64,000 bases of DNA from Oscillospiraceae bacterium (GTDB lineage: Bacteria > Bacillota > Clostridia > Oscillospirales > Ruminococcaceae). The stretch lies in NCBI GenBank assembly GCA_017468365.1, contig JAFUIS010000005.1, forward strand, positions 1 through 64,000, written 5' to 3'. The notes under the pieces are model-generated. The model saw only the letters and a program-made list of their open reading frames with translations, did not search any database and was not told where the DNA came from. A program made the position numbers and the translations under genes. Shown here in pieces: positions 19,386-33,299 of this stretch. Position 1 is the stretch's first letter; each line of letters starts with the position of its first letter.

Positions 19386-20891
19386 ATGAAACCCCTTGTT
19401 TTAATGATACTCGACGGTTTCGGCTATAACGAAAGCGATTACGGTAACGCTATCCGCGCCGCAAAAATGCCGAACCTTGACAAAATAAAGGCCGAATGTC
19501 CCAAAACCATCATCGGCGCTTCCGGACTTGACGTCGGTCTTCCGGACGGTCAGATGGGAAACTCCGAAGTCGGCCATACCAACATCGGCGCCGGAAGAAT
19601 CGTTTATCAGCCGCTGATGCGAATCACCAACGCGGTCCGCGACGGAAGCTTTTTTGAAAACGAAGCACTTTGCTCCGCTATGGAAAACTGCAAAGAAAAA
19701 GATTCCGCCCTTCATATCCTCGGACTTCTTTCCGACGGCGGTGTTCACAGCCATCTTGAACATATCTTCGGCCTTATTGACATGGCGAAGAAAAACGGAC
19801 TTTCGAAAGTTTATCTTCACTGCTTTATGGACGGAAGGGACGTTCCTCCCTCCTCCGGAAAAAGTTTTATCGAAAAGCTTGAAGCAAAACTTTCCGAAAC
19901 CGGAATCGGCAAAATCGCTTCCGTCGGCGGAAGATATTACGGAATGGACCGTGACAAACGCTGGGACAGAGTTGAAAAACATTATAAAGCTCTTGTTCTC
20001 GGCGAGGCACCTTTTGAAGAAGATGCCGCAGCGGCAGTTCAGAAAAGCTATGACGAGGGCGTGACCGATGAATTCATCGTTCCGTTCATCTGTGAAAAAG
20101 ACGCCGGAATCAAAGACGGCGATTCGGTTATTTTTGCAAACTTCCGCCCCGACCGCGCAAGAGAAATGACCCGCGCCATTGTTGACAAGGAATTTTCCGG
20201 TTTTGAAAGGACCGCAAAGGACGTTTGCTACGTTTGCATGGCTCAGTATGACGAAAGCATCGAAAACGTAAAGGTGGCGTTCCCGCCCCTTGTTCTTGAA
20301 GATACCTTCGGCGAATACATCGCCAAAAAAGGTCTTAAACAGCTTCGCATTGCCGAAACCGAAAAATATGCCCACGTCACCTTCTTCTTCAACGGCGGCG
20401 TCGAAACTCCTTATGAAAACGAAAGCCGCGACCTTATCGCTTCGCCCAACGTTGCGACCTATGACCTTCAGCCCGAGATGAGCGCTTATCTCGTTACCGA
20501 AAAGCTTCTTGAAGAGCTTGACAAAAACGAAAACGACGTCATCATCCTCAACTATGCAAACACCGACATGGTCGGTCACACCGGCGTTTTTGAGGCGGCT
20601 GTGGCAGCCTGTGAGGCCGTTGACGAATGCCTTGGCAAAGTTTGCGAGAAGGTAAAAGAACTTGGCGGTGCGGTCATTATAACCGCCGACCACGGCAACG
20701 CAGACGTTATGCTTGCCAAAGACGGAACTCCTTTTACCGCACACAGCACCAACCCCGTTCCGTTCATCGTTTACAACTATCCTTGCGAACTTCGCACCGG
20801 CGGTGTTCTTGCGGATATTGCACCCACCATGCTCAAAATGCTTGGAATGGAGCAGCCCGAAAGCATGACAGGAAAAAGCATTATCATTTAA
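19386..20891 (+). CDS. gpmI: 2,3-bisphosphoglycerate-independent phosphoglycerate mutase
   Basis: A 501-residue metal-dependent iPGM of the alkaline phosphatase superfamily. It has D10 and the nucleophile S60 (GQMGNSEVGHTNIGAGR), DGRDVPPSSG near residue 150, NFRPDRAREMTRA and the C-terminal metal ligands in NYANTDMVGHTG and TADHGNAD. It begins 12 bases after tpiA with GGAG upstream. It converts 3- to 2-phosphoglycerate, completing the three-step cluster; enolase is not in the window. Confidence 0.98.
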   Translation: MKPLVLMILDGFGYNESDYGNAIRAAKMPNLDKIKAECPKTIIGASGLDVGLPDGQMGNSEVGHTNIGAGRIVYQPLMRITNAVRDGSFFENEALCSAMENCKEKDSALHILGLLSDGGVHSHLEHIFGLIDMAKKNGLSKVYLHCFMDGRDVPPSSGKSFIEKLEAKLSETGIGKIASVGGRYYGMDRDKRWDRVEKHYKALVLGEAPFEEDAAAAVQKSYDEGVTDEFIVPFICEKDAGIKDGDSVIFANFRPDRAREMTRAIVDKEFSGFERTAKDVCYVCMAQYDESIENVKVAFPPLVLEDTFGEYIAKKGLKQLRIAETEKYAHVTFFFNGGVETPYENESRDLIASPNVATYDLQPEMSAYLVTEKLLEELDKNENDVIILNYANTDMVGHTGVFEAAVAACEAVDECLGKVCEKVKELGGAVIITADHGNADVMLAKDGTPFTAHSTNPVPFIVYNYPCELRTGGVLADIAPTMLKMLGMEQPESMTGKSIII

Positions 20892-20904
20892 GATGCTCAA
20901 AACA

Positions 20905-20942
20905 AAAATCCCGTGCTCAAAACGAGCACGGGATTTTTTTGT
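20905..20942. terminator. Bidirectional terminator between gpmI and the fusion gene, CCGTGCTCA family
   Basis: Stem AATCCCGTGCTC / GAGCACGGGATT with a short AAAAC loop and A/T runs on both sides. Confidence 0.92.
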
Positions 20943-20953
20943 TATGTTTTTTA

Positions 20954-23900
20954 TCAGTATTTGATGCCGATATAGCAGTTGGAATAATATTTGAGAAGAA
21001 TTTCGTCCCATTCATATCCCTGCTTTGCATAAGCTATGGAGCCCACTGCGCTGAGACCGACACCGTGGCCGTAACCGCGGGTGGTGAACACGAAAACATC
21101 TCTTGCGGAGTTGTATTCAACCTCGAAAGCGGTGGAACGGAGGGTGGAACCTCCGAGCACGTTTTCGCGGAGTTTTCTTGCGCTGTAAGTGGTTCCGCCG
21201 AGGTTTACTTTATCGACATAGTCGGTAGTTCCGAAATAGCTGGAAATGCTTATCCATGTGGAAGGATCGCCGGAAAGGGTTATTCCCGCTTTGCTTTTCA
21301 CCTTGTTTTTGAAATCGGTGGAAGAAATGGTTTTTACGGTTTCGGCTTTTCCGTCAACGGGAGAAGGTACGGAAAGAAGGTTGCGGTTGCTTCCGCCCCA
21401 GACCCATTTGGAATCGGCGGTCACGCCGCAACTTTCGGAGAAATAGGTTGCAAGAATAAAGTCGTCGCTTCTGTCGTCAAGAACCGCATAGCCGATAACT
21501 TCGGCAACGCAGCGTTTTATCTGGCTGTCAAGTTTTGCGGCGCTTGTGCCTGCGCTTACAACGCCGCCGTGATACATAAGATAGGTATAGGTCGCGACTG
21601 CCTGGGCTTTTACGTGTTCGTCAGGCTGTCCTCTTCCCGCTTCGTATGCAACTATCTGGCAGACCGCATCGTAAACGGTCATTTTGGTTCCGTTGACCTT
21701 TACGGTCTCAACAAGGGAACGCTCGTAATATCCGCTTCCGGAAGAAGGAGCGGAAGGTCTTGCGCTTCCGAGGAGCATTCCGCTCGCAGAGGCAGAAGTG
21801 CTTTCGGAGGAAGTGTTTCCGTCGCCGCTGATGATTATCTTATCCGGTTCGGAAGAAACGGAGGTGCCTTCGGAACTTGTTTGAGGCGGAAGAGAAGAAA
21901 CCGGTGCGGAAGAGGTGCTTCCGGAAGGTTCGGACGGAGCGGAAGAAGTTGCGGAAGAAATACTTTCGGAAGAAGTGCTTTCGGAACTTGTTTCCGCTTT
22001 GGTAACGTTGATTTCGAAGGTTATTTCTTTTCCTTCATAGGTTACTTTTACGACTTTTTTGCCCTCAGTTTCAAGAACGGTTCCGTTTTCAAGGTCAAGA
22101 ACGAAATCGGCGGTGATATCTTCATAGCTGCCGTCGCTCTTCTGAACTCTTATTACAAGGCCGGTGGTATCGAATTTATCGCCGACTTTATATTCGAGCT
22201 TGGTGGGTTTTACCTTTACCGCAAGGGATTCGACCTTGATTTCGGAAGAAGTGGTCGCGGAAGAGGTGGAATCGGAACTGGTTTCCGCAGAAGTGGAATC
22301 GGAACTGGGCTCGGAAGAGGTTTCGGAAGAAGTTTCTTCGGAAGAGGAACTTTCGGAATCCGCAATTTCTTCGGCGTCGCCGAAGGTGGCATCTTCTTCT
22401 TTCTTCTGTGCCTCGGCAATGGTCTTATACCATTTATCCGGCATGAGCGGGTTTGCATTATAATATGCAGCGCTGGTATCAATGGCGCTTAGGTCCTCGC
22501 CCTCGCGAACTTCCCTTGCAATGATGACTACCCTTGCATCGGTGAAGTCATAGCTGCAGGTGGAAAGGGTGAGGAAATGGTCGTTTTCGTTATAATCAAC
22601 TCCGGTCACGACCATGGTGCGTTTTGCAACTTCTTTTACGAATTCGCGGGTCTCTTCCGCGGTTCCGTAAATAAAGTTGTTATAGTTCCATACGGGGCCG
22701 TCTTTTTCATAAGCGTTGGTAAGAACAACGCCTACCACCAGCCAATCCTTATCGCCGTAAAGGGTGTCAAAATGGATGACCGGGTGCTCTTTATAGAATT
22801 TGAGTTTGCGGTATTTGAGAAGGTCGCTGAACATCTGGCCGTCGTCATAGACGTTGTGGCCGTAAACGATAAGGTTGGTGCTCTGGATATCCGGGCGGGT
22901 ATCGCAGCGGTAATCAAGGAACGGAGTTCCGTACATGGAATAGTTTCCGTAAAAGTCCTTGCGCAGATAGTACTGGCCTTTTTTGCCTTTATCGTTTGCC
23001 ATTTCGGTCTGGACGACCGGGAAATTGACGTTGGTGCCGTCAATTTTTATGTAGCCGATGAGGTCGCGGTTTTCTTCATAAAGTGCATAGAGTTTTTCGT
23101 TGAATTCCCAATCCTCCGGCACCTCGATGTTTTCCTGCTGAACAAGGTTCTGCAGGTTTGCGGCAAGGCTTCTGTGAGTTACGGAATCGGCAACTTTCGT
23201 TCCAAGGTAACCCATGCAGCCGAGGAAAACAAGGATACTGATTATAAAGACAGATTTTCTGACGGTCTCGCCTTTGGAATCGCCTTTCATTGGGATGAAT
23301 CTGGAATACCATTTTCCGCCGGATTTTGTTTCGGAAGTGCGGAATTTTGCTTTTCCGGAAACGGCGGCTTTAAAGGATACCGCATTTTCATAAAGTTTTG
23401 GATAAGCGGAAACAACGGCTCTTGCAAGATGAACTGCCGCAAAACCTGCCGCGGCGATAAGTTCTTCACGGGTGGAGGCGGTGACGTGTTCGGTCCAGAC
23501 GTTGTCGCCCATGCATACGGCGACGTTTGCGCCTTCGGAAACTTTCATGGGGTCGCTCGTTATGGCGATACCGATGTTGGAACCGTAGCTGCGGTTGACC
23601 TCTTCCGCAAGGATGGATGCGGTCCATGCGCTGTTTTTCCCGTGGCGTTTAAGAGTTTTTTCCGGAACGTTGCAACGGTCAAGGCCCTGGGAAGTTCCGA
23701 GGTAGTTTCCGACGTACTCACTTGTGTAAGCGGCGGAAGCTATTTCGTTTCGCTGGATTCCTTCAAGAGCAATGGCGGCTTTAAGGTCTTTTTTGCTCAG
23801 TTCTTTTCCAAGCGCCTGACCTACGTTTTCGGCATCCACCGCATAAGCGGCGCTTCCGAGTTCTTCAACAATGCTTTTTATCGCAGAATTTACTCGGGTA

Positions 23901-24502
23901 TAAGCTTCTTTTCTGTTTTCGCCTTTTGCATAGACCTGAACGGCAATCTCGCCTTCGTCCTCATAAACTCTTGCGGCGGCGCCAAAAGTTTCGGCAGCGG
24001 AAACCGCTTCTTCGGCCTCAGCTTTGGTAATCTTGCAGGCGCGGACGGTGCGCATTGCGAAAGGTGCTTCAACAAATTCCGCAAGGTACTGGGAAACGCG
24101 GTAGCAAAGCATGAACTGAAGGCTTTTTGCTCCGCCGGGTATCATGATGATGCACTGGTTTCCTGCGGAAATGGCGCATCCGCTGGGTCTTCCCTCTTTG
24201 TTGCGGAAAATTTCGGCGCCTTCGGGGAAAAGTTCTCCGTCTTTCATAACGGTGTTGAAACCGATTGCCGACGAAACGGCGGAAACGGTCATGTTGCCGT
24301 TTCTTTCGCCCATGCCGCCGATAATCAATATTACGTTATAATCGGCAAGAGATTCCGCCACGGTTTTATGGATGGCTTCCTGCTCTGCATCGATGCGCTT
24401 GCCTTTGATGTTGGTGATCCCAAGCATCTCGAACTGTTTCTGAACAAGCGAAGCGACGTTATCCTGTTTCACGTTGCTGAGAAGAATTACTTCAGACTGC
24501 AT
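20954..24502 (-). CDS. CinA-like / class B sortase / Ig-like / SpoIID multidomain membrane protein
   Basis: One uninterrupted 1182-codon frame. Residues 1-145 resemble the CinA N-terminal MoCF domain (IIGGMGERNGN for the usual GGLGP loop), 150-215 a CinA KH-like region, 240-370 the CinA C-terminal amidase fold, where the catalytic SxTGG is absent. A short basic stretch precedes one membrane span (416-436). Residues 470-665 form a class B sortase with H549 (YGHN), C649 (TLSTC) and R657. A Ser/Thr-rich linker (717-753), a bacterial Ig-like domain (754-834), a second Ser-rich linker (835-925) and a SpoIID domain (925-1182; E954, RGYGHGVGLS at 1142) follow. Expected topology: CinA part in the cytoplasm, the rest outside. 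The ATG has AAAGGAGTG upstream. It is the last gene of the cysteine desulfurase-thiI operon. The domain calls are firm, the combined role is unknown. Confidence 0.88.
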   Translation of the reverse strand: MQSEVILLSNVKQDNVASLVQKQFEMLGITNIKGKRIDAEQEAIHKTVAESLADYNVILIIGGMGERNGNMTVSAVSSAIGFNTVMKDGELFPEGAEIFRNKEGRPSGCAISAGNQCIIMIPGGAKSLQFMLCYRVSQYLAEFVEAPFAMRTVRACKITKAEAEEAVSAAETFGAAARVYEDEGEIAVQVYAKGENRKEAYTRVNSAIKSIVEELGSAAYAVDAENVGQALGKELSKKDLKAAIALEGIQRNEIASAAYTSEYVGNYLGTSQGLDRCNVPEKTLKRHGKNSAWTASILAEEVNRSYGSNIGIAITSDPMKVSEGANVAVCMGDNVWTEHVTASTREELIAAAGFAAVHLARAVVSAYPKLYENAVSFKAAVSGKAKFRTSETKSGGKWYSRFIPMKGDSKGETVRKSVFIISILVFLGCMGYLGTKVADSVTHRSLAANLQNLVQQENIEVPEDWEFNEKLYALYEENRDLIGYIKIDGTNVNFPVVQTEMANDKGKKGQYYLRKDFYGNYSMYGTPFLDYRCDTRPDIQSTNLIVYGHNVYDDGQMFSDLLKYRKLKFYKEHPVIHFDTLYGDKDWLVVGVVLTNAYEKDGPVWNYNNFIYGTAEETREFVKEVAKRTMVVTGVDYNENDHFLTLSTCSYDFTDARVVIIAREVREGEDLSAIDTSAAYYNANPLMPDKWYKTIAEAQKKEEDATFGDAEEIADSESSSSEETSSETSSEPSSDSTSAETSSDSTSSATTSSEIKVESLAVKVKPTKLEYKVGDKFDTTGLVIRVQKSDGSYEDITADFVLDLENGTVLETEGKKVVKVTYEGKEITFEINVTKAETSSESTSSESISSATSSAPSEPSGSTSSAPVSSLPPQTSSEGTSVSSEPDKIIISGDGNTSSESTSASASGMLLGSARPSAPSSGSGYYERSLVETVKVNGTKMTVYDAVCQIVAYEAGRGQPDEHVKAQAVATYTYLMYHGGVVSAGTSAAKLDSQIKRCVAEVIGYAVLDDRSDDFILATYFSESCGVTADSKWVWGGSNRNLLSVPSPVDGKAETVKTISSTDFKNKVKSKAGITLSGDPSTWISISSYFGTTDYVDKVNLGGTTYSARKLRENVLGGSTLRSTAFEVEYNSARDVFVFTTRGYGHGVGLSAVGSIAYAKQGYEWDEILLKYYSNCYIGIKY

Positions 24503-24545
24503 GAAATCACTCCTTTCAAAAATAAATTTTCATTTGCATAAGTTA

Positions 24546-25724
24546 TCAGTTTTTAGGAAAGAGACGAAGACGCTGGTGTTTTATTTCGCAGCGGTCAAGA
24601 AGAGCCTCGATATCGAGAGCCTTTTCTGCCTCTTCGATCATTTCAAGTGTCGGGCGGGTTCTGGGGTGTCTGGGGGTAAACACGGTGCAGCAATCTTCGT
24701 AAGGAAGGATCGAAGTTTCGAAAGTATCGATTTTTTCGGAAATTTCGATGATCTCCTGTTTATCCATACCGATAAGGGGACGGAAAACCGGAAGAGTGGA
24801 AACCGCATCGGTGCAGCCTATTGCGGGCATCGTCTGGCTTGCAACCTGGGCAAGGCTTTCGCCGGTGATGATTGCGCCGCATTCCTCTTTTTCCGCAAGG
24901 CGAAGCGCAACTCTCATCATAAAGCGGCGCATTATTACGGTGAAGAGTTCTTCGGGACATTTGTTTTTTATCTCTTCCTGAATCTCGGTGAAACCGGCGG
25001 AGAAAAGATCGATAACCCCGCAGTAATCACAAAGTTTCTGGGCAAGGGTCTGGACTTTGAGCCATGCTCTTTCGCCTGTATAAGGCGGGGACTGGAAATG
25101 AAGAGCGCAGATATCAACGCCGCGTTTTGCCATCATATAACCGGCAACGGGGCTGTCGATTCCGCCGGAAAGAAGGAGAAGTCCTCTTCCGCTGGTACCT
25201 ACGGGCATTCCGCCTGCGCCGGGAAGCTGCTGGCCGTGGATATAGGCATATTTTTCGCGGATCTCGACCATTACGACGATATCCGGGTTATTTACGTTTA
25301 CTTTAAGGTGGTGGAATTTGGAAAGGAGCACCGCACCCATTTCTCTTGCAATCTCGGGGGATTTCATGGGAAAGCTTTTGTCGCTTCGCTTTGCCTCTAC
25401 CTTAAAAGTTTTGAGATAAGGAAGAGTATCCGCAAGATAGATCTTTGCTTTTTCGGTGATGTCTTCCCAGTTTTTTTCGGCAACGCAGGCTCTGGTAAGA
25501 GCTACGATTCCGAAAACTTTCTGAAGGCGCTCCACCGCTTCGTCAAGGTCAAGTCCCTCTTCCTGGGGCTCGATATAAACGGTGGACTGGCTTTTCCAGC
25601 ATTTGAATTTTCCGAGGGATTCAAGGCGGCGTTTGCAGTTTTTGATGAGCCTGTCTTCAAAACCGGAACGGTTGAGACCTTTGAGGGCAATTTCGCCGCA
25701 TTTTATAAGTATGATTTCTTTCAT
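24546..25724 (-). CDS. thiI: tRNA 4-thiouridine synthetase ThiI (no rhodanese domain)
   Basis: A 392-residue protein with an N-terminal ferredoxin-like part, a THUMP domain (about 60-165; RLQKVFGIVALTRACVAEKN) and a PP-loop ATPase domain with SGGIDS at 186-191. It adenylates U8 of tRNA and inserts sulfur from the cysteine desulfurase encoded 14 bases upstream. The C-terminal rhodanese domain of the E. coli enzyme is missing, as is usual in Firmicutes. C-terminal TRPTLEMIEEAEKALDIEAL is conserved in the family. The coupling to its sulfur donor in one operon supports the assignment. Confidence 0.96.
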   Translation of the reverse strand: MKEIILIKCGEIALKGLNRSGFEDRLIKNCKRRLESLGKFKCWKSQSTVYIEPQEEGLDLDEAVERLQKVFGIVALTRACVAEKNWEDITEKAKIYLADTLPYLKTFKVEAKRSDKSFPMKSPEIAREMGAVLLSKFHHLKVNVNNPDIVVMVEIREKYAYIHGQQLPGAGGMPVGTSGRGLLLLSGGIDSPVAGYMMAKRGVDICALHFQSPPYTGERAWLKVQTLAQKLCDYCGVIDLFSAGFTEIQEEIKNKCPEELFTVIMRRFMMRVALRLAEKEECGAIITGESLAQVASQTMPAIGCTDAVSTLPVFRPLIGMDKQEIIEISEKIDTFETSILPYEDCCTVFTPRHPRTRPTLEMIEEAEKALDIEALLDRCEIKHQRLRLFPKN

Positions 25725-25738
25725 TTATGGACCTCTTT

Positions 25739-26872
25739 TTATCTGCAGAGTAAGCTCATTGCGTCTTTTATTGCGGCAACGAGTTCGTCAATATCTTCTT
25801 TTTCGGTATCCCTTCCGAAGCTGATTCGAAGGGCGGAATCTATTCTTGCGCTTTCATATCCCATTGCGGCAAGAACATGACTTTTTGCCCCAAGAGCACA
25901 AGCGGAACCGCTCGAAACATATATTCCTCTTTCTTCAAGAAAATGGAGCATTATTTCGCTTCGAATCCCGGGAACGGAAATGTTGACAATATTCGGAATG
26001 GAGTTTTCTTTGGAGTTCACAACGATTCCTTCGACATTTTCAACGGAATCGAGAAGGTGTTTTTTGAGCATGCTCATGCGCTCTTCCCTTCCCGGCATAA
26101 AAGAACTGTCGATGGCAGCGGCTTTTCCAAAAGCGGCAATAAGGGGCATCGCCTGGGTTCCGGGACGAAGCTGTTTTTCCTGTTCGCCGCCGAAATGATT
26201 GGGAAGCACTCTTGCGCCTTTTTTGAGCCAAAGAGCGCCGACGCCTTTCGGTCCGCCGATTTTATGGGCGGTGACGGTGACCATATCCACTCCGGATTTT
26301 TCGGCCTTGAACGGAATTTTGCAAAAGCCCTGTACCGCGTCGGTATGAAAAACCACTTCGGGATTTTTGCGCTTCGCGGCGGTGCAAAGTTCCTTTATCG
26401 GGTTTATCGCGCCAATCTCGTTGTTGACGAGCATTATTGAAACAAGAACGGTTTTTTCGTCCACCGCCTCAAAAAGCGAAGCGGGAGTTATTATTCCGTT
26501 TTCGTCCGGCATAAGATAGGTTACGGAAAAACCCATGCTTTCAAGCTGTTTTGCGCTTTTTATAACGGAATCGTGTTCATAGGCGGAAACGATGACTTTG
26601 TTTCCTCTTCGTTTTTTGGCAAGGGCACCGCCGATAACCGCAAGGTTGTTGGCTTCGGTACCGCCGGAGGTGAAATAAAGTCCGTCCGGGTTTACGCCAA
26701 GAGTTTCGGCAACGGTTTTTCTTGCTTCCTCCATTATTTTTTCCGCTTCGATTCCTTTTGAATGGAGCGAAGAGGGATTTCCGTAGGTTTCGGTCATAAC
26801 TTTATATGCGACCTTTGCGGCTTCATCATAAACCTTTGTGGTCGCACTGTTATCAAGATAAATTTCTTTCAT
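25739..26872 (-). CDS. nifS: Cysteine desulfurase (NifS/IscS-like)
   Basis: A 377-residue PLP enzyme that removes sulfur from cysteine. It starts MKEIYLDNSATTKVYDEA; the PLP lysine is K204 in TAHKIGGPKG, H100 is in SAYEHDSVIKSA, and the active-site C325 is in SSGSACALG. The start is the ATG at 26872, 8 bases after GGAGG; an ATG at 26905 adds 11 residues but has no ribosome site. Pairing with thiI points to tRNA thiolation as its main task, as for the dedicated NifZ of Bacillus (known of that system, inferred here). Confidence 0.95.
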   Translation of the reverse strand: MKEIYLDNSATTKVYDEAAKVAYKVMTETYGNPSSLHSKGIEAEKIMEEARKTVAETLGVNPDGLYFTSGGTEANNLAVIGGALAKKRRGNKVIVSAYEHDSVIKSAKQLESMGFSVTYLMPDENGIITPASLFEAVDEKTVLVSIMLVNNEIGAINPIKELCTAAKRKNPEVVFHTDAVQGFCKIPFKAEKSGVDMVTVTAHKIGGPKGVGALWLKKGARVLPNHFGGEQEKQLRPGTQAMPLIAAFGKAAAIDSSFMPGREERMSMLKKHLLDSVENVEGIVVNSKENSIPNIVNISVPGIRSEIMLHFLEERGIYVSSGSACALGAKSHVLAAMGYESARIDSALRISFGRDTEKEDIDELVAAIKDAMSLLCR

Positions 26873-26916
26873 TGACCTTGCCTCCGATTGAACATAGTTA
26901 TCCATTATTCAGAGTT

Positions 26917-26945
26917 ATTATACACAAAACGACGGGATATTTCAA
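26917..26945 (-). promoter_or_regulatory. Promoter of the desulfurase-thiI-fusion operon
   Basis: Minus-strand TTGAAA, 17-base spacer, TATAAT, about 45 bases upstream of the start. All three genes are likely read from it. Confidence 0.75.
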
Positions 26946-27065: not shown

Positions 27066-27869
27066 TTACTGAACGTAGCCTTCAAGAATAAGCTTTAAAG
27101 GTTCGTAACCGTATTCACCGTTTTCCGCATAAGCGGTGAAATATTTTACCTCCGTAAGCACTCCGTTTATTGCGGCATATGCGGCAAAATCACAGCCGTA
27201 TTCCCTGACGTTCTGTACTATACGAAAATCTATGCCCGCCGAATTTGTATAAATTTCTTTTTCGGAAGAAACTCCTTCGGTGCCCCAGCCCGTTCCGGTT
27301 CCCCATTTTTCGTCTTCGCCGGCATCCACGATATATCTTACATCGATGTTTCCGTAGAAAAACGCGGAGGTAATGGTGCTTTCAAGGTTTCCTTCTTCAT
27401 CATTGGCAAGCATTACGTAACAGTTGACTTTTCCGCTTTCCCGTTCTCCGTTTCGGTTATAAGCTTCCATATATACGTTCGGCCCGTTTCCGGAACGTCT
27501 TTCAATAAGCTCGTTTTTCGGAAATTCAATTCCCAAAAATTCTTCCGCCTCGGAAAGCGACTTCATTCTGTAACAGCAGACCGTTTCTTTCTGGTTTTTT
27601 GCGGTTTCTATGACTTCATCGGAAAATTCTTCGATTGGAATAAAAACATCGCTGCTGGCCGACCAGCCGCCTTCATAAACCAAAAGATCGACCTTGAAAA
27701 CCGCCGCCATTACCGGAACCGCTACCAGAAGAGCAACGCAGGCGGCAAGAACACTCCATTTTATTTTTTTGAAGGGTCTGAGGCTGATTTTTGCCGGTTC
27801 TTCAAAAGCCGAAAGCAAAAGTTCATCGTTTATATTTTCAAAAGCATCATAAAATTTTTCGCAGTTCAT
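27066..27869 (-). CDS. Putative membrane-bound anti-sigma factor
   Basis: A 267-residue protein with a short cytoplasmic N-terminus (MNCEKFYDAFENINDELLLS), one membrane span at about 38-58 and a beta-rich extracellular part of 200 residues with no recognised domain. The layout and position are those of an anti-sigma factor: its ATG overlaps the TGA of the sigma gene by one base (TGATG), so the two are translationally coupled. No zinc-binding ZAS motif is seen, so inhibition would use another type of cytoplasmic segment. The role is inferred from the pairing, not from homology. Confidence 0.65.
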   Translation of the reverse strand: MNCEKFYDAFENINDELLLSAFEEPAKISLRPFKKIKWSVLAACVALLVAVPVMAAVFKVDLLVYEGGWSASSDVFIPIEEFSDEVIETAKNQKETVCCYRMKSLSEAEEFLGIEFPKNELIERRSGNGPNVYMEAYNRNGERESGKVNCYVMLANDEEGNLESTITSAFFYGNIDVRYIVDAGEDEKWGTGTGWGTEGVSSEKEIYTNSAGIDFRIVQNVREYGCDFAAYAAINGVLTEVKYFTAYAENGEYGYEPLKLILEGYVQ

Positions 27870-28426
27870 CAAAAAAGTCCCTCCTTTTCCAGATATTTTT
27901 TAAGTTCTTTTCTCATTCGGAAAAGCACGGATTTTGTCTTGCTTTCGCTTATTCCGTAAGCTTTTGCAATTTCCGCCACCGGGTACATATACCAGTAGCG
28001 GCGGATAAATATGCTGCGTTTTTCCGGCGGATTGGAATAAAGAAACTTTTCAATGACGGAAGTGATTTCCGCTCTTTCGATTTCTTCTTCCACCCCGTTT
28101 TTTTCCGGAATACATTCCTCAAGTTCCGAAAAAGCCGCTTCGGCTTCGCCTCCGCCGCGCTTTTTCCTTACGTTTTTTCTGAAGCGGTTTATGGCAATGT
28201 TATGGGTTATTCTTCCGATATAAGCGCCGAGTTTTTCAGGCGAATTGGGCGGAATGGTGTTCCATAGCGCAAGGCAGGCGGAGCTTAAACATTCTTCTGC
28301 ATCTTCTTCGTTTTGAAGAACGTTCTTTGCTATGGTAAGGCAATAGGCGCCGTATTTTTCTTCGCAGGCGGAAACGGCTTCTTCGTTTCTTTCAAAAAAC
28401 AGCTCTATGATTTTGCAGTCCTCCAA
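27869..28426 (-). CDS. ECF-type RNA polymerase sigma factor
   Basis: A 185-residue sigma-70 family protein with regions 2 and 4 only. Region 2 covers LQNEEDAEECLSSACLALWN and GAYIGRITHNIAINRFRK; region 4 is FIRRYWYMYPVAEIAKAYGI followed by SESKTKSVLFRMRKELKKYL, a helix-turn-helix. The start is a TTG at 28426, 6 bases after GGAGGG; the frame is open 15 codons further to an ATG with no ribosome site. A putative promoter of ECF type lies just upstream, consistent with autoregulation. Confidence 0.9.
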   Translation of the reverse strand: MEDCKIIELFFERNEEAVSACEEKYGAYCLTIAKNVLQNEEDAEECLSSACLALWNTIPPNSPEKLGAYIGRITHNIAINRFRKNVRKKRGGGEAEAAFSELEECIPEKNGVEEEIERAEITSVIEKFLYSNPPEKRSIFIRRYWYMYPVAEIAKAYGISESKTKSVLFRMRKELKKYLEKEGLF

Positions 28427-28474
28427 TGCTTTCCCTCCTTTTTTCGGTTTCTTAAAAGGCCTTTCACCCATAAA

Positions 28475-32676: not shown

Positions 32677-33222
32677 TTAGGGATTACAGTTTTTGCAAGG
32701 AGAATAACCTTTGTTTATGGCTTCCGTCCTTGTTCCGTCAAAATAAAGCTTGTTCTTTTCTTTCATTTGGTTTACGGAATTGCACCACGAGTAGTGGAAT
32801 TTACCTGTGTTTTTGTTAAGGATATAAGAGTATTCTTTTTCATCATTTGAAGAATAATTATTTGAAACGTAAGAGTCTCCGCTATAATTGTTCGAACTTG
32901 AAGAAGATTTTGAAGAACCTTTGGAGGACGATTTGGAGTCCTCTTTGCCTTGATTGTATCCGTCATTGTATCCTACATAATACCCTTCATTGTATCCACT
33001 TCTCCTTCCTTCTTCCCTTCCTTTTTTCAACCCTTTATTATATTCTTCAACTTTCGCCGTTTCATATCCACTGTTGTATGCTTTATCAATTTCTGCAATA
33101 TATAAATTATATCCGCCAAAGCCAATTATAACGATTGCCAATATAGCATAAACAATAGTGGAAAAACCAATTCCGGATTTTATTTTAACATCATTCTGGT
33201 ATGTATTTTGAGAATCAGCCAT
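32677..33222 (-). CDS. Membrane-anchored protein with GY-repeat stalk and Ada-like zinc-binding domain
   Basis: A 181-residue protein. Residues 1-17 are polar, 18-41 form one membrane span, 52-92 hold repeats of the GYNxGY type (SGYNEGYYVGYNDGYNQG), 97-125 are almost pure Ser/Asn, and 132-181 form a compact domain with KFHYSWCNSVNQM and GYSPCKNCNP, in which H143, C147, C176 and C179 can bind zinc. This C-terminal domain resembles the Ada metal-binding-like tail seen on secreted nucleases. The start is ATG 33222 behind GGAGGCGCAAA. Base composition is more AT-rich than the neighbours. It is divergent from an XRE regulator. Function unknown. Confidence 0.72.
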   Translation of the reverse strand: MADSQNTYQNDVKIKSGIGFSTIVYAILAIVIIGFGGYNLYIAEIDKAYNSGYETAKVEEYNKGLKKGREEGRRSGYNEGYYVGYNDGYNQGKEDSKSSSKGSSKSSSSSNNYSGDSYVSNNYSSNDEKEYSYILNKNTGKFHYSWCNSVNQMKEKNKLYFDGTRTEAINKGYSPCKNCNP

Positions 33223-33246
33223 TTTGCGCCTCCAAAATATTTTATA

Positions 33247-33266
33247 ATGCCACAATATTGTAGCAT
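33247..33266. promoter_or_regulatory. Operator-like palindrome, copy 1
   Basis: ATGCCACAATATTGTAGCAT: arms ATGCCAC and GTAGCAT match at 6 of 7 positions around AATATT. It is 24 bases upstream of the membrane-protein start and centred 33 bases from copy 2, three helical turns. Confidence 0.6.
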
Positions 33267-33279
33267 AATCCAATATTTT

Positions 33280-33299
33280 ATGCAACAAAATAGTAGCAT
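33280..33299. promoter_or_regulatory. Operator-like palindrome, copy 2
   Basis: ATGCAACAAAATAGTAGCAT: arms ATGCAAC and GTAGCAT match at 6 of 7 positions. It ends 20 bases before the XRE start and shares the GTAGCAT half with copy 1. Likely target of the adjacent XRE protein (inference). Confidence 0.6.

Follow-up and report, generated by a model that had tools for sequence, protein, structure and literature searches.

A CinA-like half, a class-B-type sortase and a SpoIID domain joined in one protein behind iscS and thiI in Oscillospiraceae: a candidate cell-wall remodelling factor

The window analyzed here is a stretch of 64,000 nucleotides from an Oscillospiraceae bacterium (assembly GCA_017468365.1, contig JAFUIS010000005.1, positions 1 to 64,000), and our subject is a minus-strand gene at 20954..24502 that encodes a CinA-like half, a sortase, an immunoglobulin-like (Ig-like) domain and a SpoIID domain in one chain of 1182 amino acids (Table 1). 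An initial annotation, made from the sequence letters, had described a single 1182-codon frame behind a strong ribosome site. Both points were borne out, as the frame is intact from its ATG (24502-24500) to its stop codon (20956-20954) and AAAGGAG lies 7 nt before the ATG, with the frame placed on the minus strand; the plus-strand reading of the same positions is broken by an internal stop. Upstream, the gene is adjoined by thiI and an iscS-type gene.

The proposed five-module architecture is supported by Pfam, NCBIfam and fold matches. The Pfam models MoCF_biosynth (4.4e-9), Sortase (2.1e-7) and Big_3 (1.3e-5) match above their own cut-offs, those for SpoIID (5e-4), CinA (7e-4) and CinA_KH (2e-3) match below theirs, and the NCBIfam models for class B sortase (2.6e-42), SpoIID (2.1e-27) and CinA (PRK00549, 8.4e-24) all score under their curated equivalog cut-offs. 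The residues that had been called intact, His549, Cys649 and Arg657 of the sortase and Glu954 of SpoIID, were all found at their positions. The Ig-like domain between Ser-rich linkers was found as well, but it belongs to the family Big_3 and not to Big_4. With a medium-quality model of the CinA half (predicted local distance difference test, pLDDT, 61; residues 1-71 under 50), Foldseek gave Thermus thermophilus CinA (4cta) as the top solved structure (E 1.4e-12), with a template modelling (TM) score of only 0.41, and Streptococcus mutans 6mr3 matched with a TM score of 0.71 by target length and 0.46 by query. The claimed resemblance of the N-terminal half to CinA is thus upheld by both sequence and fold, and the three-domain MoCF-KH-CinA-C fold is predicted to be present, the start of MoCF being poorly modelled. 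A model of residues 400-1182 was too poor to be used (pLDDT 43, predicted TM score 0.27).

Table 1. Features of the fusion gene and its surroundings (positions in the window).
Feature	Position	Strand	Evidence and remarks
CinA-like / sortase / Big_3 / SpoIID fusion gene	20954..24502	-	1182 amino acids; frame, domain matches, same frame in L037-L042 and L044-L046
COG1058/MoCF domain, residues 1-148	24059..24502	-	PF00994 4.4e-9; catalytic Glu and Asp residues not found
CinA KH-type domain, residues 149-224	23831..24058	-	Pfam match below cut-off, fold match
CinA-C (NMN deamidase) fold, residues 225-372	23387..23830	-	without SxTGG, without catalytic Lys
Transmembrane span, residues 417-435	23198..23254	-	hydropathy
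Class-B-type sortase domain, residues 445-670	22493..23170	-	Pfam, NCBIfam, PDB sequence match
Sortase His549	22856..22858	-	residue check
Sortase Cys649	22556..22558	-	residue check
Sortase Arg657	22532..22534	-	residue check
Ser/Thr/Glu-rich linker, residues 671-756	22235..22492	-	sequence; dN/dS 0.25
Big_3 Ig-like domain, residues 757-836	21995..22234	-	Pfam; 0-3 copies in congeners
Second Ser-rich linker, residues 837-924	21731..21994	-	dN/dS 0.73, least constrained segment measured
SpoIID domain, residues 925-1182, with RGYGHGVGLS	20957..21730	-	NCBIfam
SpoIID catalytic-position Glu954	21641..21643	-	residue check
Shine-Dalgarno AAAGGAG	24510..24516	-	7 nt 5' of ATG; read directly from sequence
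thiI, adjoins fusion gene upstream, same strand	24546..25724	-	Pfam-confirmed
iscS-type cysteine desulfurase (Pfam aminotransferase class V), likely the operon's first gene	25739..26905	-	Pfam-confirmed
Sigma-70-type promoter-like site just 5' of iscS	26917..26945	-	11/12 matches; consensus match only
Terminator-like hairpin between fusion gene and convergent gpmI	20904..20938	.	consensus match only

A similarity search returned ten congeneric loci, all from Oscillospiraceae metagenome-assembled genomes (MAGs), nine of them named from ruminant samples. In nine (L037-L042, L044-L046), CinA half, sortase and SpoIID share one frame, with best-segment identities of 64-79%, and the tenth (L043) runs off its own contig. 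L037 gives no Big_3 match, and in the further congener G061 (L047) SpoIID is encoded separately and carries its own span at the N-terminus. Three other surface proteins of the window's genome (L004, L005 and L006, on contigs C9, C11 and C26) carry the same stretch of Big_3 domain and Ser-rich linker at 39-52% identity, and L004 and L005 both finish in a similar membrane span that starts with GIPFWVWII; this cassette may move between surface proteins. The Big_3 protein on contigs C11 and C26 and SpoIVA on contigs C7 and C27 gave identical-score matches on two contigs each, an indication that the assembly contains redundant sequence.

Some part of the protein is matched in 195 of 197 family genomes at E<=1e-5, many matches covering only the sortase or the SpoIID part. 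For a closer view, we scored 111 loci (the window, the ten congener loci and 100 fetched regions) with models built from these proteins; as the 100 regions were hand-picked among the listed matches to the window protein, a CinA-SrtB alignment or PF02464, the set is not a random sample. In 93 loci, thiI is immediately followed, on its own strand, by a member of the set; another five loci sit at contig edges, and the remaining 13, in some of which thiI is close by, did not pass the distance test. A single frame carries CinA part, SrtB and SpoIID in 40 of the 111 loci, or in 31 if nine congeners are left out. In other families, which we take to belong to the order Oscillospirales, we found thiI-cinA without a sortase (L162-L165; three of them with an adjoining IscS-type gene, and L162 and L164 with a small MoCF-like gene downstream), cinA with a separate srtB behind it (L151-L153, L161), fused CinA-SrtB (L154-L156, L159, L160, and L149 at a contig edge), cinA, srtB and spoIID as three genes (L123), and CinA without thiI (L166, L167). 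The window's own family contains the three-gene form (L069, L169, L170, L179), a lone CinA-C with one to four sortases and then SpoIID behind it (L083, L085, L086, L184, L185, L188-L190), CinA-SrtB fusions with a separate SpoIID (L058, L059, L062, L067, L068) and the full fusion. On a quick tree of IscS and ThiI from 92 loci, parsimony required at least 7 changes for CinA, 7 for the sortase, 10 for the CinA-SrtB fusion and 13 for the SpoIID fusion, these being minimum counts without direction. It had been proposed that independent genomes showing the same order would support the architecture and that separate genes in relatives would weaken it. Both were found, and the recurrence of one frame taken together with separate co-linear genes suggests the stepwise joining of an operon. 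Among 196 sampled genomes of the class, no fusion was detected outside the order at E<=1e-122, a threshold at which weaker fusions would be missed; the three matching genomes were the window's own and G674 and G740, the latter two covering CinA alone.

In the CinA half of the window protein, the motif residues of COG1058 and PncC are missing. The loop for SxTGG, which we, like the initial annotation, take to be the PncC loop motif, reads EGIQR, confirming that SxTGG is missing, and the Lys column holds a Gly; in the COG1058 part the Glu is absent and GGLGPxxDD reads GGMGERNGN. The catalytic columns were taken from PMC4246079, where Lys-301 of PncC is catalytic, and from PMC3680494, where COG1058 mutants in the Glu and the two Asp residues were inactive (both available in part), and were mapped onto a reference set of 27 CinAs (from L087-L116) that includes several from such operons. 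Across the 111 loci, all seven CinA-C motif columns are kept in 62, altered in 37, and absent or too weak in 12. The 62 intact loci comprise 45 that also hold the COG1058 Glu/Asp/Asp, 15 without the COG1058 columns and 2 without the Glu, and none of the 37 altered loci, which include the window and its ten congeners, holds all three COG1058 residues. Nevertheless, the altered half is not junk in the window's genus, where it is under strong purifying selection: the ratio of nonsynonymous to synonymous substitution rates (dN/dS; ten congeneric sequences, Nei-Gojobori, dS near 1) is 0.13 for MoCF, 0.23 for KH and 0.11 for CinA-C, compared with 0.15 for the sortase, 0.18 for SpoIID and 0.25-0.73 for the linkers. 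The value of 0.42 for Big_3 is blurred by copy number.

The state of the operon CinA-C goes together with the presence of a second CinA elsewhere (Fisher p 3e-17). Of the 28 family genomes whose operon CinA-C is altered, 26 have another CinA outside the operon; the exceptions, G032 and G026, are 91% and 87% complete. No such CinA was found in the 42 genomes with an intact one: 41 have a single CinA match, which falls within the operon region fetched, and the two matches of G024 both belong to the operon. The count omits loci lacking an operon CinA-C and congeners without a genome handle. In the window's genome, the second CinA is a 178-amino-acid PncC-like gene (L117). Intact operon CinA appears to be the only CinA enzyme of the cell, and the simplest story would be that the operon copy is the sole CinA until a second gene appears and then decays but stays. 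In G024, the tandem order of thiI, an intact cinA and a decayed CinA-SrtB (L204, contig C11, 964-3917) gives the impression of a duplication in place that is still under way.

The sortase of the window protein has the complete His, Cys and Arg triad. It passes the Pfam Sortase cut-off and reaches 144.8 bits with TIGR03064 against a cut-off of 153.75, for which reason we call it class-B-type rather than a class B member; its best PDB sequence match is 1rz2 (4.8e-24). In the 111 loci, His and Cys are present in 85 and lost in 16, and the sortase is missing or cut off in 10. Three of the 16 (L191, L192, L196) have a degenerate sortase region that was assigned by hand, and L077 was scored as present because of a second sortase further downstream. 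In the dead sortases, YGHN is replaced by YGNR, YGSN or YANS, and LSTC by LSTA, LSTE or LATP. With regard to substrates, the srtB_target model (TIGR03063), run on 15 genomes, gave no match at E<=1 in the window's genome (it was weakly positive in 7 of 14 controls), and none of the 10 PxTGD (DNA pattern) and 44 KTGD matches of this genome lies in a C-terminal sorting signal, other motifs not having been searched genome-wide. KTGD is the form that occurs in G013 (below), and the reversed control of its coding pattern gave 18 matches. In G013, a genome with the three-gene form, the srtB_target model matched 32 times at E<=1 (L208, L219, L224 and L227 among others), for the most part in frames of more than 1000 amino acids. 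Four exceed the cut-off, and each of these ends in a TGD-type sorting signal, AKTGD in three cases and PPTGD in one. The matches form a candidate substrate set beside that operon.

SpoIID was found in 73 of the 111 loci, and its catalytic-position Glu (column from the available part of PMC6221140) is present in all 73, including 13 with a dead sortase; two further fragment matches (L173, L205) miss the Glu position. The best PDB sequence match of the window SpoIID is 5i1t (6.2e-13), and with the sporulation equivalog TIGR02870 it reaches 96.1 of the required 234.75 bits. In a quick tree of 65 operon SpoIIDs (eight congeners dropped) and 21 stand-alone SpoIIDs from 20 genomes and the window's own, one branch separates the two groups (Shimodaira-Hasegawa-like approximate likelihood ratio test 96); the stand-alone copies are presumed to be the sporulation SpoIIDs. 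The sporulation marker SpoIVA is present in 168 of 197 family genomes, the window's included. Operon-type SpoIID with the Glu occurs in 9 of 13 surveyed SpoIVA-negative genomes, for instance G017 (96% complete), G041 (94%) and G160 (94%, 0.8 Mb); four of the 13, among them G160 and G187, were assigned by elimination or listing. In two genomes of 0.8-0.9 Mb, G160 and G087, the gene lies directly 3' of infB, away from iscS-thiI: G160, which has no CinA match at all, carries a sortase-SpoIID fusion (L197, 4717-6558) and G087 a lone sortase (L198, 5829-6731).

The strongest hydrophobic span of the window protein (417-435) lies between CinA and sortase, which supports the topology given in the initial annotation, with sortase and SpoIID after the span and CinA before it, presumably on the cytoplasmic side. 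Exactly one strong span at this place is found in 71 of 76 fused frames; the window is among the five exceptions because of a weaker stretch (348-366) inside its CinA-C match. Separate operon SpoIIDs have their own N-terminal span in 28 of 29 cases, whereas 41 of 43 SrtB-SpoIID fusions have none between the two domains, so that fusion would let two extracellular enzymes share one anchor.

Our preferred reading, to which we give a probability of roughly 55%, sees the protein, as a product of the iscS-thiI operon, in the role of a vegetative cell-wall remodelling factor tethered to the membrane. The locus would have grown by gain and fusion of neighbours, first cinA, then srtB, then spoIID. With the CinA half in the cytoplasm and sortase and SpoIID outside, the constant chemical output would be SpoIID-type cutting of glycan strands, as suggested by the invariant SpoIID Glu in the face of residue loss in CinA and sortase. 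The intact sortase of the window could act as an accessory transpeptidase or a wall-docking platform, and CinA and sortase would partly be scaffolds. The dead CinA half may be retained as a cytoplasmic scaffold, which perhaps dimerizes the protein, since the T. thermophilus CinA is a dimer. Expression would be vegetative, and the role of the operon SpoIID is probably not sporulation. A precedent outside sporulation is the SpoIID homologue of the Chlamydia-related Waddlia chondrophila, which cleaves glycans at the division septum according to the available part of PMC6635528.

Several points weigh against this reading. The window SpoIID scores under its cut-offs (PF08486 21.1 versus 23; TIGR02669 73.7 versus 83.3), as do L038 and L197 with PF08486, which L051, L054 and L193 pass. 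No SpoIID was found in the fetched region of 38 of the 111 loci, where CinA-SrtB must do something without it, nor in that of four of the 13 SpoIVA-negative genomes (G036, G043, G080, G087), and three operon SpoIIDs (L150, L158, L173) fall on the stand-alone side of a midpoint-rooted drawing. The Clostridioides difficile SpoIID, moreover, requires prior action of the SpoIIP amidase (PMC6221140, available part). As His and Cys are kept in 85 loci, the label 'accessory' may be too strong for the sortase, and 'dead' is less sure for the 12 of 37 altered CinA-C domains that retain the catalytic Lys; in all domains the calls of intact and lost were made on residues alone. The association with a second CinA is backed on the tree by few independent pairs, 6 in total of which 2 are supported, and is thus consistent but not proven.

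A possible alternative, which we think is unlikely, is a sortase-centred anchoring machine in which the sortase anchors surface proteins, SpoIID trims glycans for access or release, and CinA is a passenger. The predominance of intact sortases in our set, SrtB genes beside cinA without SpoIID in other families, operons with three to four sortase genes (L083-L086, L190) and the TGD-type signals among the 32 srtB_target matches of G013 all fit this idea. However, the locus persists in the 16 cases without sortase His and Cys, and all 13 of these that have SpoIID keep its Glu; the window's genome, as described above, yielded no substrate with srtB_target or in the PxTGD and KTGD searches, and it has two other sortases (L002, L007). 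Somewhat more doubtful is a signal-gated machine, in which the CinA-derived half would bind a nucleotide such as NMN (nicotinamide mononucleotide) or ADP-ribose and switch the outer enzymes through the membrane span. Selection on the dead half is about as strong as on the other domains, 12 of 15 former active-site positions are invariant in 11 congeneric sequences compared with 168 of 357 elsewhere (p 0.011), and a domain movement during the cycle was proposed for the T. thermophilus CinA (PMC4246079, available part). Yet p rises to a non-significant 0.10-0.23 once neighbouring positions are included, the operons L084 and L199 yielded no CinA part and G160 no CinA match, and in many loci the CinA has an intact motif and is the only one found. 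A loop-based test for a retooled ligand pocket (p 0.0004) was not used, as its loops had partly been picked after seeing the invariant columns, and its mechanical repeat, the count of 12 of 15 given above, was weak. 'Nucleotide-sensing' and 'signal-gated', as the initial annotation put it, are possible but unproven, the COG1058 and NMN deamidase motif residues being gone and the pocket test weak. The more specific version, in which the former pocket binds NMN or ADP-ribose, gates SpoIID and sortase outside and couples NAD or DNA-damage status to peptidoglycan remodelling, is less probable still.

As SpoIVA is so common in the family, it was in principle also conceivable that the protein is a sporulation factor, namely a paralogue of the engulfment SpoIID. 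We set this aside as improbable after the branch separating stand-alone from operon SpoIIDs and the SpoIVA-negative genomes with operon-type SpoIID had been seen, and an operon headed by iscS-thiI with a sigma-70-type promoter-like site also argues against it. Finally, an assembly chimera, a frameshift or another annotation artefact could be suspected, given that the window's genome is split over 33 contigs and that the named relatives were assembled from metagenomes. We consider this very unlikely, far more so than any of the above, because nine separate congeneric MAG records have CinA half, sortase and SpoIID on one frame and because five Pfam domains lie above their cut-offs on one chain in G051 and G078, assemblies of only 2 and 7 contigs. 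The vegetative remodelling factor stays our preferred reading. Under it, a wall-remodelling locus would be widespread among a large group of gut bacteria, one in which the joining of neighbouring genes into one is visible. The locus offers natural experiments: in versions of the same chain CinA is intact or altered and the sortase alive or dead, and the SpoIID Glu is constant in 73 loci. Two questions can thereby be tested, namely why lyases of the SpoIID kind exist outside sporulation and why dead enzymes persist within larger proteins.

Some observations concern the surroundings of the gene. The number of promoter-like sites in the region, nine, barely exceeds the 6.8 expected from shuffles. 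A defence system was rejected, as a PADLOC search gave no match at E<=0.01. Two long antisense open frames on the plus strand (20627-22492, 621 amino acids; 22577-24541, 654 amino acids) overlie the fusion gene and are probably a composition effect. By eye, a sigma-factor-like gene (200 amino acids) and a possible anti-sigma partner (268 amino acids) lie upstream of the iscS operon (27066-28471, minus strand), and a small membrane-anchored protein with Gly/Tyr-rich repeats, GYNEGYYVGYNDGYNQG, is encoded at 32677-33288 on the minus strand.

Each module of the protein is known. The literature searched, which mostly leaves subscription papers outside its coverage, held no description of CinA with sortase and SpoIID, of a class B sortase with SpoIID, or of a sortase with CinA and ThiI, and the papers found on sortase and SpoIID were judged unrelated from title and the start of the abstract; the conserved CinA-sortase-SpoIID chain with recurrent loss of catalytic residues in its first two parts is absent from it. 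With bifunctional CinA (COG1058 ADP-ribose pyrophosphatase plus PncC NMN deamidase, as in 4cta), the window protein shares the domain order MoCF-KH-CinA-C and the fold. Same-locus relatives hold, like known CinA, every catalytic residue checked, whereas the window copy is without the Glu/Asp/Asp of COG1058 and without the SxTGG and Lys of PncC, and is joined to a membrane span, a sortase and SpoIID, the CinA-derived half preceding the span and the two other enzymes following it. Class B sortases (Staphylococcus aureus, Bacillus anthracis-type, C. difficile SrtB) have in common with the window sortase the His-Cys-Arg residues and a hydrophobic span just before the domain. They differ from it in that it has a CinA half before it and Big_3 and SpoIID after it, is without a recognized substrate in the genome searches and scores under the TIGR03064 cut-off; in contrast to them, some of its relatives are dead sortases. 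The SpoIID homologue of W. chondrophila resembles the proposed role of the window SpoIID in acting on peptidoglycan outside sporulation, but an Asp at position 48 is reported to be important for its activity where CinA-sortase-SpoIID proteins have Glu, and the available part of the article mentions no CinA or sortase fusion (PMC6635528). Sporulation SpoIIDs, from C. difficile and others, share with the window SpoIID their sequence relation (5i1t), the catalytic-position Glu and the GYGHGVG motif, whereas the operon SpoIIDs are split from the stand-alone copies by one branch, have no span of their own when fused, and occur in SpoIVA-negative genomes.

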